The notes below the pieces were generated by a model that had not been told where the DNA came from, searched no databases, and was given only the letters and a program-made list of their open reading frames with translations. Source: Caballeronia arationis (GTDB taxonomy: Bacteria > Pseudomonadota > Gammaproteobacteria > Burkholderiales > Burkholderiaceae). From it: a stretch of DNA of 64,000 nt. Positions 6,659 to 13,763 of this stretch are shown here, piece by piece. Position 1 is the first letter of the stretch. The number at the start of each line of letters is the position of its first letter. The DNA lies in NCBI RefSeq assembly GCF_001544975.2, contig NZ_FCOG02000033.1, forward strand, positions 1 through 64,000. The letters run 5' to 3'. Position numbers and translations under genes: made by a program.

Positions 6659-7431
6659 ATGCGTCTTAAAATGAATCGCATGACTCAACAAGTGCTGATC
6701 GTCGATGACGACCCCGTGGTGCGCGACCTCGTTCGCGAATACCTGCAATCCCACGGCTTCGCGGTGTCCGTGCTGCATGATGGCGCGGGCCTCAAGCGCC
6801 GCATTGAAGCCGAGCGGCCGTCCCTTGTCGTGCTGGACGTGATGATGCCCGAGCGCGATGGTATCAGCGCGTTGCGCGAGTTGCGCGAGTTGCGCGACGG
6901 CGGCGAGGATATCCCCGTGATTTTTCTGACCGCGCGCGCGCTGATGTGGTCGATCGCGTGATCGGACTGGAACTGGGTGCCGACGACTACCTCGCGAAGC
7001 CGTTCGATCCGCGCGAACTGGTGGCGCGGATTCGATCGGTGATGCGGCGCCGACATGCGGCTGTGCCGGGCGCGCCGGAGAATCGTCCGCCGTATCGCTT
7101 CGGACCATTCGAAGTGGACTTCGCTGCGCGCGAATTGCGCCGCGCAGGCGAGCGGGTGCCGCTGCGTTCCGGCGAGTTTGCCACGCTCAAGATCTTCGTG
7201 AAGAACGAGATGGTGGTGCTCACGCGATCGCAACTGAACGAGAAGCTGCGCGGGCAGGCAGGCTCGTATCGCGACCGGAGTCTCGACGTCTCGATCTGGC
7301 GGCTGCGGCGGCTGCTCGAAACCGATCCGTCGGAGCCGCGGTATGTGCAGACCGTGTGGGGTCAGGGGTACATCTTTGTGCCCCACGGTGAGACGGGTGC
7401 CGCTGAGCGCATCGTGCGGGGGGCATGCTGA
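6659..7431 (+). pseudogene. OmpR-family response regulator, frameshifted in a CG tract
   Basis: The first part gives a normal receiver domain (VLIVDDDPVVRDLVREYL, phospho-site in VVLDVMMP, then PVIFLTARA). It runs into a premature stop at about 6960. The second part restores the family in another frame (DRVIGLELGADDYLAKPFDP) through the winged helix and VQTVWGQGYIFVP. The break falls at (CG)5 in 6931-6940; four CG units would restore T-A-R-A-D-V-V-D-R. The start at 6659 has GGAAAG six bases upstream. It is clearly paralogous to the regulator at 5676-6410 and has no partner kinase beside it. Slippage, decay or a sequencing error could explain it. Confidence 0.8.
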
Positions 7432-7447
7432 TGGGGCATGCATTGGG

Positions 7448-8118
7448 GGGTGTTCACACCGTTTGATGTTTCTGGGCTTCTATGGAACTTGTTTTCTTTG
7501 TGGTCTATTAGCTCTGCCCCTGTGCGGGGCGGCAGTCACTTTCTTTGCTGCTGCAAAGAAAGTAACCAAAGAAAGCAGCTTTTTCAGGCAGCAGTCTTAG
7601 GACGGCAACGCACCAGCAATACCGAGTGGCCCAGCGCCTAAGTGTCGCCCTCAAAAGACCGAGGGGCTTGGTGCGCGGCACGCACTGTGTCATCGCGCAG
7701 TGAACAAGTTGGCACAGCAGTCATTCATCCGTTTTCGCTTCGCTGGACGAAAGGTGCATTAGTCGTGCGGTTGAGGGTCGCGGTCGAGCTTGCAATCCGC
7801 TGGTTTTCGGTTGTGCCCGTCGTCCGAGCGAAGCGCGGACGGACCGGAACGGAGCGCATACCGCTCCGTGAGAGACTCAGAGGTGTCAGTGCGTGCGCGC
7901 GCCAAGCCCGGTGGTCGTTTGAGGGCGACACTTAGGGGCTGGGCCACTCGGTACTGCTAGGGTGGTCACGTCCTAATACCGTTGGCCCCCTAGCTGCTTT
8001 CTTTGCTTACTTTCTTTGCAGCAGCAAAGAAAGTAAGTCCCGCCCCGGACAGGGGCAGAGCTAATAGACCGATAAGAAAGCAAGTTCCATAGAAGCCCAG
8101 AAACATCAAACGGTGTTG
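7448..8118. repeat. About 670-bp long imperfect inverted repeat element
   Basis: This gene-free stretch is one large palindrome. The outer arms match nearly perfectly for over 30 bases (CACCGTTTGATGTTTCTGGG at the left, its complement near 8082-8115). Further matched blocks follow inward: GGTCTATTAGCTCTGCCCCT; TTTCTTTGCTGCTGCAAAG with AAAGAAAGCAGC; CGAGTGGCCCAG; CTAAGTGTCGCCCTCAAA. Each arm is about 240 bases, with a central region of about 200. Short open frames on both arms begin with the same MSPS motif, because they are the same sequence inverted. I recall similar TTTCTTTGC-type repeats dispersed in Burkholderia-group genomes. No transposase is present, so it is MITE-like at most. Confidence 0.75.
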
Positions 8119-8159
8119 CAGACCAACCGCCCCAAGCGCCACGTACAACCGCGCGCCAG

Positions 8160-8864
8160 CTAAAAAGTCAGCACGCTCAGAAAGAGCCGCTGCAGCCAGC
8201 CCATCGTAGTGGAATCGGCAAGCATGCCGACGCCTGCCTGCTCGATGCGCGCATTGGCGACCTTGTTCGACGGCACATAATTGCCCGCCTCGATGTCCTT
8301 CGGGTTCACGATGCCCGAGAGTCGCAGGCGGTCGTTGTTGCCACTCATCGCGATGACCTTGTCTCCAGCGACGATCAGGTTGCCGCTCGGCAGCGTGCCG
8401 ATCACCGACACCGCGAGAGTCCCGTTCATCGCGCTCACGTTCTTCGTGTTGCCCTCGCCCTTGAACGTCGTGTTCGCCGAGCCGATGTTGAACAGGCGCG
8501 CGAGCCGCGCCGCCGCGCCAGTCGACTTGTCGGCGGCTTCCGCGCTGATGCTGCTCGCGCGACTCGCGGCGGCGTCGGCGGAACTGCTGCCTTCGTAGTT
8601 CTCCGAGAGCCGGATGGTCAGCACGTCGCCGACGCGCTGCGCACGCGGCGTTTCATAGAGCGAGAGCGAGCTGCTCGCCTGAAAGATCGCGCCCTGCGTG
8701 TTCACGTTGACCGGCTGCGCGACCACCGGCGCGAACGTCGGCATCTCGACGATGGAGCGTGGCGGCGAAGACGTGCAGGCGCTCGCCGCAAGGGACGCGC
8801 AAAGGACGAGGATTCGGTTGCATCGGATCATGTCGGTGAGAATGAGGTTCGGTCGCGAGGTCAT
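8160..8864 (-). CDS. flgH: Flagellar L-ring protein FlgH (orphan copy)
   Basis: This outer-membrane lipoprotein has a signal and lipobox ASAC and the FlgH core: GAIFQ, a VGDVLTIRLSE block, a SVIGTLPSGNLIVAGDK block, RLSGIVNPKDIEAGN, and the C-terminal GWLQRLFL. FlgH normally forms the L ring around the flagellar rod, with the FlgI P ring. Here neither flgI nor any other flagellar gene is nearby, so it is an orphan or repurposed copy. The start at 8864 overlaps the preceding stop as ATGA; an internal start at 8831 (MIRCNRIL) gives a more usual signal peptide. It is the last gene of a four-gene unit. Confidence 0.82.
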   Translation of the reverse strand: MTSRPNLILTDMIRCNRILVLCASLAASACTSSPPRSIVEMPTFAPVVAQPVNVNTQGAIFQASSSLSLYETPRAQRVGDVLTIRLSENYEGSSSADAAASRASSISAEAADKSTGAAARLARLFNIGSANTTFKGEGNTKNVSAMNGTLAVSVIGTLPSGNLIVAGDKVIAMSGNNDRLRLSGIVNPKDIEAGNYVPSNKVANARIEQAGVGMLADSTTMGWLQRLFLSVLTF

Positions 8865-10777: not shown

Positions 10778-11374
10778 TCATCGCGACACCCATCCGCGCC
10801 GGATGAGCGGCGCAAATACCGGCCGGTAAATGGCCGTCGCCACGCGCAGCACCGGCTCTGCGAACCAGCGCCCGGTGGCCGCCGCGAGCCCCGCGGCCGC
10901 GCTCGCGACGAGCGCCGCGCCGACCATGTCAAAGGGGAAATGCACGCCGAGATAGATGCGCGACCACGCGATCGGCAGGCCGAGGAGCCCAAGCAGGGCG
11001 CCGGCTCGGCGCGTGCGGGCATGCAGCATGAGACTCGCTGCCACGGCGCAGAGGAACGTGAGATGGTCGCTCGGCAGCGAGGGGTCCGCGATGTGCGGCA
11101 TCAGGTAGGTGCCGAGCCCGATCATGAACGGTCGCGGATGAGGCCAAAGCAGCACGACGATCTGCGCAAAGAACAGGGCAGCGAGCGCCGCAGCGCTCGC
11201 TTCGATCAGACCGCGCCGCAATGAGTCGTTGCCGCGCAGCCAGCCGATGACGAGCCCGAGCGGCACGAGCCAGATCGCGTAGTCGGCGAACACGAACGCG
11301 GCTGTCACTGCATAGGGGTTCGGATGGGCCGGCGCGTTGATCAGGAGGAACAGCGATTGATTGAGTGATTCCAT
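10778..11374 (-). CDS. PAP2-family membrane phosphatase (undecaprenyl-diphosphatase-like)
   Basis: This 198-residue integral membrane protein has about five hydrophobic segments. The three PAP2 motifs are present: LWPHPRPF, the LPSDH motif, and SRIYLGVHFPFDMVG. The arrangement is closest to BcrC-type undecaprenyl-pyrophosphate phosphatases, which recycle the lipid carrier of cell-wall and LPS synthesis; a lipid phosphate phosphatase role is also possible. It is 61 bases upstream of an orphan PmrA-like regulator and next to the hopanoid genes, in a block concerned with the envelope. Confidence 0.8.
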   Translation of the reverse strand: MESLNQSLFLLINAPAHPNPYAVTAAFVFADYAIWLVPLGLVIGWLRGNDSLRRGLIEASAAALAALFFAQIVVLLWPHPRPFMIGLGTYLMPHIADPSLPSDHLTFLCAVAASLMLHARTRRAGALLGLLGLPIAWSRIYLGVHFPFDMVGAALVASAAAGLAAATGRWFAEPVLRVATAIYRPVFAPLIRRGWVSR

Positions 11375-11546
11375 GAGCGTCCAGATGCGGATATTTATTT
11401 GCGACCGTAACGAGGAAGACTTAGCGGATACCGAGGAAGCTTCAGAGCGGCATGCGGCGCGGGATCGCGGCGGGTTCGCGAAGACCGCGCGCCTTGACCG
11501 CCCGCCATGCGGCGATGGCGATGCACCCCCAGGTGATTTCGCATAT

Positions 11547-11602
11547 CCGCCGCGCGTGTGCCGGCATGAGACGCATGGCTCATGCCGGCACACGCGCGGC
11601 GG
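11547..11602. repeat. Perfect 24-bp inverted repeat at the hpnK end
   Basis: Arms at 11547-11570 and 11579-11602 are exact complements (right arm starts CTCATGCCGGCACACG) with an 8-base loop. The right arm contains the hpnK stop and its last seven codons. No T run follows, so it is not a standard intrinsic terminator, but transcribed RNA would form a very stable hairpin. Confidence 0.95.
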
Positions 11603-12428
11603 CGCGCGCCTTGTGGCCGAAGATGTCGGCGAAACCGCCCTGCATTGCGCCGCTCGCGGCGAGCGCCTCCGCGACCGCCGGCGAGCGCAGGGCCGCGAGT
11701 TCGTCGGCGTGCCGGTAGCCGCGCATCGACGACGTGAGTTCGCCCGTGCCGGGGCTCGCCGGATGGCAGTAGATCTCCAGCACGCCATCCGGTTGCTGCG
11801 CGAGCACCGCGAGCAACGCGGCCTCGTCCATGCGGCCAGTCAGTGAAAGGCCGGCGACACGATCGTTATGGTCGATGCCCGCGCGCGCCATGCGCGCTTT
11901 CGCGAGTGCGATCCACGGACGCAGACCGATCGAGCCGTGGAGTTCGTTTGGCAGGCGCATCGCACGCATGCCGAACTCGCGGCCGATCTCGAGAATGAGC
12001 GCAAGCACGGTCGGATGCAGATGAAAATGCTTGTGCGTGTTGACGTGATCGAGCGCGAGGCCGGTCGCGGCGAAGGTTTCGAACTGCGCGCGGATTTCCG
12101 CCGCGAGTTGCGCGCGCACACGCGGCAGGCAGAAGAAGCGCAGACCGTCCAGCGCCATTGACGAGCCGAAGCGGCCCTCGCGGTCGACGAGATCGGGAAT
12201 CGCGCGATGCGGCAGCGTCGCGCGGCCGTCCGCGAGGACGATGTGCAAGCCGACACGCAGTCTCGGCAACTCGTGCGCGCACGCGATCGCGCCTTGCGCG
12301 GCGGGTGCGCCGACCATCAGGCTCGCGGCGGACAGCACACCGTCGCGATGCGCGAGCACGACCGCTTCGTTCACCCGCGCGTGCAGGCCGAAGTCGTCGG
12401 CGGTGACGATCACGCCGCGCACGCTCAC
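11580..12428 (-). CDS. hpnK: Hopanoid biosynthesis deacetylase HpnK (ChbG/YdjC family)
   Basis: The 282-residue protein has the YdjC fold signatures: VIVTADDFGLHARVNEAV at the start (metal-binding D-D), GLHIVLADG, DHVNTHKHFHLHP (metal histidines) and EIYCHPA. HpnK removes the acetyl group from N-acetylglucosaminyl bacteriohopanetetrol after HpnI adds the sugar, giving the glucosamine-modified lipid. It follows hpnI on the same strand, and its ATG overlaps the stop of a 22-codon hpnJ remnant. The coding end forms half of a perfect inverted repeat. Confidence 0.85.
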   Translation of the reverse strand: MSVRGVIVTADDFGLHARVNEAVVLAHRDGVLSAASLMVGAPAAQGAIACAHELPRLRVGLHIVLADGRATLPHRAIPDLVDREGRFGSSMALDGLRFFCLPRVRAQLAAEIRAQFETFAATGLALDHVNTHKHFHLHPTVLALILEIGREFGMRAMRLPNELHGSIGLRPWIALAKARMARAGIDHNDRVAGLSLTGRMDEAALLAVLAQQPDGVLEIYCHPASPGTGELTSSMRGYRHADELAALRSPAVAEALAASGAMQGGFADIFGHKARAAARVPA

Positions 12429-12493
12429 GCCTCGTGCGTGCGCGTGAAGCGGAAGAACTCGAACGACGGAACCTGCAGGAACAGTGTCTTCAT
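12425..12493 (-). pseudogene. hpnJ: hpnJ remnant (N- and C-terminal codons only)
   Basis: A 22-codon frame reads MKTLFLQVPSFE then FFRFTRTHEA. The first part matches the usual start of the radical SAM protein HpnJ, which lies between hpnI and hpnK in other bacteria. The last part is joined in frame and its TGA overlaps the hpnK ATG (ATGA), as expected for the natural hpnJ-hpnK junction. This looks like an in-frame internal deletion of about 450 or more codons. HpnJ carries out the ring contraction giving the cyclitol ether head group, so that product should be absent unless hpnJ is elsewhere. The match is from memory of the family. Confidence 0.6.
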
Positions 12494-12521: not shown

Positions 12522-13763
12522 TCATCGGCTATCCGGAAGGTCGGACGCGTCTGGGTCGGGGCGCAAATGCGGCTTGCTCGCGGTGCGCGCGCTGTCGACC
12601 GGCACGCGCGCACCGCGCCATGACACGCTGCTGCCGAACGCAGCCGCGAACCATTGCAGCCAGAGAAGGGCGTCGCGCAGCGGCAGGAGCGGCAGGTCGC
12701 GCCAGAAGCCGCGCCAGCTGCGCGCGCTGCGCCAGTGCAGCAGAAGACGCGCGCTCAGGCCGAGCGACGTGCTGAGGTCAACGATCGTGTCGACGTACGA
12801 ATGCTCGATATTGCCGCCGCTCGCATCGATGCCGACGCCGAGCAGGCCGCTCGCGACGAGCCACGGCGATGTGAACGTGACGAACAGGAACGCGAAGCCG
12901 ATCGGATTGACGGAGCGGATCGTGCGCAGCCAGCGCGTCTCGCGGCGCCAGAGCGAAGCGAAGTCGCGTTCGGTCACGTCGGTCGCGACCACCACGTCGG
13001 AGAGCACGACCGCGAGGCCCAGGTCGCGCACGCGTTCGGCGAGGCGGTAGTCGTCGGCAAGACAGTCGCGCAGCGCGTGAAAGCCGCCGCTCGCCGCGAG
13101 CGTGTCGCGTGTGAGCGCGAGCGTCGCGCCGAAGCCGAAACTGCGCGAACCCGCCGCGTGCGCAATGTGGACCGAGGGCACGAACCATTCGTCGATGAAG
13201 AGCGCGCCGATCCGCGCCCAGAAGCCGCCGACGCGCCGCGCCCGATAGAGGCACGTGACGATGCCGACCTCGCGCTCGAAAAGCGGCGCGGTGACGCGCG
13301 TGAGATAGTCGGGCTCGACGGCGATGTCGCTGTCGGCGATGACGAGCAGGTTGTGCCGCGCGTGTGCCGCAAGGTTGATGAGGTTGCCGACCTTGCGGTT
13401 GCTGCCGTGATGCGAGCCATCGACCACGAGCTGGATGTCGAGATGCGGATAGGCGCTTCGCAGGCGCGCGACGACCGCCACGGCCGGATCGCTCGCCGAC
13501 GCCACGCCAAACAGCAGTTGATACGACGGATGGGTCTGCACGCAGAAGGTCTCGAGGTTTTGCACGAGGCGCGGTTCGGCGCCGCACAGCGGCTTGAGCA
13601 CGCTGATCGCTGCGGTCCTCGACAGGCGAAGCGCTTCACGGGTCCCGCCGACGGTTTCGCGCACGGCGGGACGCACGAGCGACGCTACGGCCACGTAGCA
13701 GGTCGCGATGCAGCACAGGCCGATGAGCACCCATTCCGCGAAGGGCAGCGACGGCGCCATCAT
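12522..13763 (-). CDS. hpnI: Hopanoid glycosyltransferase HpnI (GT21)
   Basis: The 413-residue protein has an N-terminal membrane anchor (about 8-30), a GT-A domain opening with AAISVLKPLCGAEP, and the donor/metal motif IADSDIAVEPDYL. GGFHALRDCLADDYRL and RRETRWLRTIRS, the (Q/R)xxRW motif of processive-type transferases, follow. C-terminal hydrophobic segments come last. It belongs to the ceramide glucosyltransferase-like family and adds N-acetylglucosamine to bacteriohopanetetrol at the inner membrane. A GGAAAG site precedes the ATG. A paired CTTAAG box lies about 200 bases upstream. It is first in a reduced hpnI-(J)-K operon. Confidence 0.87.
   Translation of the reverse strand: MMAPSLPFAEWVLIGLCCIATCYVAVASLVRPAVRETVGGTREALRLSRTAAISVLKPLCGAEPRLVQNLETFCVQTHPSYQLLFGVASASDPAVAVVARLRSAYPHLDIQLVVDGSHHGSNRKVGNLINLAAHARHNLLVIADSDIAVEPDYLTRVTAPLFEREVGIVTCLYRARRVGGFWARIGALFIDEWFVPSVHIAHAAGSRSFGFGATLALTRDTLAASGGFHALRDCLADDYRLAERVRDLGLAVVLSDVVVATDVTERDFASLWRRETRWLRTIRSVNPIGFAFLFVTFTSPWLVASGLLGVGIDASGGNIEHSYVDTIVDLSTSLGLSARLLLHWRSARSWRGFWRDLPLLPLRDALLWLQWFAAAFGSSVSWRGARVPVDSARTASKPHLRPDPDASDLPDSR

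Follow-up and report, generated by a model that had tools for sequence, protein, structure and literature searches.

The window (the whole stretch of 64,000 nucleotides analysed, from Caballeronia arationis) contains on its minus strand a native hopanoid operon, read in the order hpnI, a 22-codon reading frame and hpnK (Table 1). From position 12493 to 12425 the short frame encodes MKTLFLQVPSFE-FFRFTRTHEA followed by a stop codon; the complete product, MKTLFLQVPSFEFFRFTRTHEA*, is the minus-strand translation of positions 12425–12493, the plus strand giving a different reading. A sequence-only reading of this DNA had taken the frame for a remnant of hpnJ, naming no strand, and a remnant it proved to be, on the minus strand. 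The family TIGR03471 is HpnJ, a radical SAM enzyme in bacteriohopanetetrol cyclitol ether synthesis. When the 22-residue product was searched against NCBIfam no family was matched, TIGR03471 included (the cut-off for the HpnJ enzyme was not reached), and CxxxCxxC, the radical SAM motif, is missing from it.

Table 1. Features of the native operon and its surroundings (positions in the window)
Feature	Position	Strand	Evidence or remark
Intact hpnI (413 aa), the gene upstream in the native operon	12522–13763	minus	TIGR03472, 443.6 bits, above cut-off
hpnJ 5′ relic, from the start codon to within codon 12, last bases TCGA	12459–12493	minus	35/35 nt against the C. telluris hpnJ start (G051/L187)
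TCGA at the deletion junction, found at both ends of the 1353-bp C. telluris stretch	12459–12462	minus	comparison with C. telluris
3′ relic of hpnJ, final 10 codons and stop (plus the common TCGA), includes GAGG before hpnK	12425–12462	minus	34/38 nt against the C. telluris hpnJ end
Intact hpnK, the genome's sole hpnK match; GTG at 12422–12420 is probably the conserved start	11580–12428	minus	TIGR03473, 376.3 bits, above cut-off; starts in relatives
Perfect inverted repeat (24 bp, 8-nt loop) marking the junction of the hpnL deletion	11547–11602	minus	one arm is the hpnK end; predicted RNA hairpin of −56 kcal/mol
3′ relic of hpnL, approximately the last 37 codons and stop	11442–11556	minus	alignment with C. 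telluris L187 starts at its base 8154, within the hpnL ORF 7264–8268
PAP2-family gene, after hpnL in C. telluris and after the hpnL relic here	10778–11374	minus	PF01569, 39.2 bits; 92% in C. telluris

The nearest relative found was Caballeronia telluris, from which the nearest named hpnK (93%) also came, and this species bears an intact hpnJ of 473 codons at the matching site. Compared with C. telluris, 1353 bp are absent from the window, an in-frame loss of 451 codons, the alignment being unbroken on both sides; two blastn blocks, of 1533 bp and 899 bp, abut at the relic junction. The 22 codons could be aligned with both ends of the C. telluris gene (Table 1) and, since they are collinear with an intact hpnJ in the corresponding place, their likeness to both HpnJ ends is not due to chance. 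The frame was thus confirmed to be an hpnJ with an in-frame interior deletion, as the sequence-only reading had proposed on recognising the start of HpnJ in its first part. The bases TCGA are common to both edges of the deletion (a microhomology of 4 nt). Among the ~10,600 distinct junctions that can be formed between the first and the last 120 nt of the C. telluris hpnJ, only 0.7% have at least 4 common bases, which favours a deletion based on microhomology. Residue 468 of the relic is Thr and residue 12, created by the junction, is Glu, while Leu and Asp, respectively, occupy these positions in all 73 distinct HpnJ sequences of 473 aa. Since both are altered, the relic peptide seems to have been released from the constraints acting on HpnJ, judging from a stretch of just 22 codons.

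The source genome is a 629-contig draft with several hpnJ copies, and the relic junction is reported as given by the assembly, inside a 79.6-kb contig. In such a draft, the interior of hpnJ might have been dropped while three similar copies were assembled, but we give this almost no credence: the overlap at the junction is just 4 nt and lies within that contig, the rest of the assembly yielded no hpnJ fragment of the native type (the fragment on contig C350, described below, is of the second-cluster type), and four of the 38 nt of the 3′ relic differ from C. telluris, as fits an aged scar, although species divergence would fit as well. The genome collections compared hold one genome per species; a search of a plasmid collection for other strains with the relic junction returned four records, none of which spanned the greater part of the query, the best with 34% coverage and 73.7% identity.

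At its 3′ end the relic runs into hpnK. The stop region is GCGTGAGCGTGCGC, in which the stop overlaps a GTG, as GTGA; the ATGA overlap previously described for the relic stop and the hpnK start is absent. The hpnK start common to relatives, which is GTG in C. telluris and ATG in C. humi, lies 2 nt past the hpnJ stop, and the relic and hpnK either overlap or are spaced by 2 nt, depending on which hpnK start is used. A GAGG stretch lies 7 nt upstream of the conserved start, within the final codons of the relic, and is possibly hpnK's own ribosome site. The start region of hpnJ and the bases upstream of it are conserved between the window and C. telluris, and coupling of hpnK to the ribosome site of the relic is plausible. 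The idea that the close upstream context of hpnK was preserved when the interior of hpnJ was lost was upheld.

The native operon has also lost most of hpnL. In C. telluris, hpnL (L187 7264–8268) and then the PAP2-family gene come after hpnK; in the window only the last part of hpnL remains past hpnK, joined to it at the 24-bp inverted repeat, which was not seen in the aligned C. telluris stretch. This junction looks like the product of a fold-back copying event. With only relics of hpnJ and hpnL left, the native operon has lost both as working genes, and hpnL would have been removed by an event separate from the hpnJ deletion. In an excerpt of PMC12583986, the function of hpnL is given as not established.

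Other copies of these genes are present in the genome, in second clusters that carry hpnI, hpnL and hpnJ without hpnK. Contig C206 bears a complete hpnJ (811.4 bits to TIGR03471, no stops, CxxxCxxC present), with a dN/dS of 0.065–0.069 against four second-cluster copies; the other 81 HpnJ rows of 473 aa share 250 invariant columns, and its product departs from them at one of these, residue 246. C206 itself is short, 9.9 kb, and ends with an IS256-family transposase. The hpnJ of the cluster on contig C173 is broken near codon 430 (L013, on C173, 1–1375; L014, on C350, 3600–4116): its match to TIGR03471 spans positions 1–428, and that of the 3′ fragment on C350 positions 425–471. The C350 fragment is identical to the C. 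telluris second-cluster copy at 133 of 135 nt, and to the native copy at 107 of 135, and it adjoins a short reading frame that occurs, inverted, at both contig ends and that matched no family in NCBIfam or Pfam. From the type of the fragment and the inverted short frame beside it, the C173 hpnJ looks as if it had been split by an inserted element. That the native hpnJ had been relocated to C350 was considered and rejected, the fragment being of the second-cluster type. The second hpnI-hpnL-hpnJ cluster also encodes a 310-aa protein (L013 2327–3259), present in some relatives too, which had no NCBIfam or Pfam match at an E value of 0.001.

Three copies of hpnI exceeded the cut-off, as did one hpnH, one squalene-hopene cyclase gene and one hpnG, the last two on the window's own contig; hpnL was found in two second clusters and once elsewhere in the genome, and hpnK only in the window. 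According to an excerpt of PMC12583986, the steps leading to the cyclitol ether follow the order HpnI, HpnK, HpnJ. With all three encoded, a complete route is predicted, in which HpnI (three copies), HpnK (from the window) and HpnJ (from C206) should make bacteriohopanetetrol cyclitol ether. The earlier expectation that the pathway would stop at the glucosamine-type hopanoid was not borne out, given the intact hpnJ on C206. The sequence-only reading had also envisaged being mistaken if an intact hpnJ existed elsewhere and the short frame had nothing to do with it; the intact copy does exist, but the frame is related to HpnJ. A true metabolic loss would require the C206 copy to be silent or inactive, with the glucosamine hopanoid accumulating. 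Two of the three hpnJ copies in the genome are indeed damaged, and the hopanoids of Rhodoligotrophos appendicifer, which has no hpnJ, are reported in an excerpt of PMC12583986 to be 100% BHT glucosamine. However, the C206 gene is full length, strongly conserved and retains the radical SAM motif, and we regard such a loss as very unlikely.

The HpnJ tree separated the native operon copies from a supported clade of 23 rows, which included those of C206 and C173. The second copies of other Caballeronia also fell in this clade, except those of G010 and G035, and the C173 HpnJ was nearest to that of the C. telluris second cluster (99%, 431 columns). Since they belong to a separate clade, the second copies would not be recent duplicates of the lost native gene. 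The hpnK tree (118 rows) indicated about seven changes of hpnJ state, an approximate figure for which L105, L183 and L121 were counted as hpnJ-bearing; in L105 and L183 hpnK stands without hpnI or hpnJ, and in L121 it lies at a contig edge. The hpnK of L183 (G015, contig C11) and L105 has no hpnI, hpnJ or hpnL beside it, a complete operon being present elsewhere in the genome.

The fate of hpnJ was followed in 58 Caballeronia genomes, the window's own included. hpnK was matched in 40 of them, in 39 with a score above the cut-off, and hpnJ exceeded its cut-off in 39. The gene states of 36 hpnK clusters from 33 genomes were scored by hand. Clusters were left out because of contig edges (two in G005, two in G024, and those of G012 and G043) or decayed genes (G008, G018 and G045); the second G031 copy, and matches in G001 and G019 that were fragmentary or distant, also lie outside this set. 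Two clusters were scored as having hpnL in spite of a flaw, that of G057, in which the gene is cut by the contig end, and that of G053, in which the native hpnL has one internal stop. All 10 clusters without an intact hpnJ came from genomes with another intact hpnJ, compared to 15 of the 26 clusters with hpnJ (Fisher one-sided P = 0.013), and the states of hpnJ and hpnL agreed in 34 of the 36. A kinship-aware test of hpnJ loss against the presence of a second hpnJ found five well-supported independent pairs, a number too small to reach significance (sign test, median P = 0.25), the direction never being reversed, so that the statistical backing is modest; for this test L183 was corrected, and L105 (apparently the same locus) and L121 were not part of it. 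Beyond this set, 29 named hpnI-hpnK loci had no hpnJ between the two genes; 26 of the genomes concerned could be searched, and all 26 had a full-length hpnJ elsewhere, in some cases within ~10 kb. Two of these 26 (L096 and L102) are apparently G030 and G042 of the genus set.

The losses of hpnJ that are nested among intact operons include that of the window, that of G034, that of G011 with G052, and that of G001 (contig C324). In G034 (L181 4838–4993) a different deletion has reduced the hpnJ between hpnI and hpnK to 51 codons, joined in frame; in G001 the internal deletion is out of frame; in G011 and G052 hpnK was kept with almost nothing left of hpnJ. Among the loci examined, both ends of hpnJ are joined in frame only in the window and in G034. 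When loci without an adjacent hpnJ were scanned upstream of hpnK for a motif resembling the hpnJ start, it turned up in this genome and at none of the 37 further loci covered, a set that did not include G034. In G030, G031, G042 and G035 an hpnI-hpnK pair adjoins an hpnJ-hpnI-hpnL cluster, which could be an old arrangement rather than a loss. Broken hpnJ genes with no intact copy found elsewhere were seen in G002, G008, G018 and G045 (2.8–3.9 Mb), the hpnK of G045 being intact, and in G027 (6.9 Mb), which has no hpnK match, hpnI and hpnJ survive only in pieces (C5 57870–58826), perhaps from a decayed operon. These cases indicate that hpnJ loss does not always require a spare copy, at any rate in a decaying pathway or genome. 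Genomes G029 and G032 have intact hpnJ and hpnI genes and no hpnK match; hpnI and hpnJ without hpnK are also mentioned for some Acidobacteria in an excerpt of PMC5462960. No report of hpnJ relics in Caballeronia was found in the literature searched, a statement that extends to that literature only.

The in-frame relics of the window and G034, together with the conserved hpnJ start region, could be taken to mean that selection has kept the frame as a short translated leader coupling hpnI to hpnK. An in-frame outcome is, however, expected by chance in one case out of three; hpnK was also retained by relatives in which hpnJ was deleted out of frame or almost completely, the GAGG near the hpnK start may serve hpnK directly, and the relic is altered at invariant residues. 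Selection for the frame was therefore rejected as the main reading, and we deem it unlikely.

The reading we prefer, with a probability of about 0.87, is that deletion of the native hpnJ was the tolerated loss of a duplicated gene, with the C206 copy compensating and hpnK retained in the operon. Slippage between short repeats is a mechanism of deletion. In a Caballeronia with a native hpnI-hpnJ-hpnK-hpnL operon, replication slippage or end joining between the two TCGA sites would have removed the interior of hpnJ in frame. The loss would have been tolerated since the second clusters carry hpnI, hpnL and hpnJ (that of C206, plus that of C173 before its hpnJ broke), and hpnK would have been kept in the native operon since those clusters lack it. 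That things happened in this order, and that hpnJ of C206 is an expressed, active gene, are inferences. Loss of hpnJ beside a second copy is ordinary gene erosion, an event of a known kind. A bolder version would have Caballeronia repeatedly stripping hpnJ and hpnL from hpnIJKL operons after gaining clusters without hpnK, the split loci allowing separate control of HpnK and HpnJ dosage (and thus of the balance between glucosamine and cyclitol ether hopanoids), with the relic kept as a leader for hpnK coupling; we consider this combination decidedly improbable.

The prediction of hopanoid head groups from genomes, on which the reading of lipid biomarkers draws, can err if a single operon is read alone: from the operon in the window, loss of the cyclitol ether would be wrongly predicted. 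That hpnJ and hpnL were lost together, in parallel, beside a second copy in several Caballeronia provides a useful natural experiment, which may help to probe the role of hpnL, a gene discussed in an excerpt of PMC12583986.

When set against the HpnJ enzyme (TIGR03471), the relic retains the slot in the operon between hpnI and hpnK and the first 12 and last 10 codons, but lacks 451 of the 473 codons, the radical SAM core among them. Compared with the C. telluris hpnI-hpnJ-hpnK-hpnL operon (L074 and L187, which have an identical hpnK and are treated as one genome), the window has the same neighbours in the same order, with hpnI 92% and hpnK 93% identical; the difference is that C. telluris has full hpnJ and hpnL genes whereas the window has relics of both. 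The locus also resembles the hpnI-hpnK loci of G011, G052, G034 and many Paraburkholderia, in which hpnK was kept and hpnJ is found in a second cluster or nearby; among the hpnJ-less loci examined, the joined, in-frame ends of hpnJ set the window and G034 apart.
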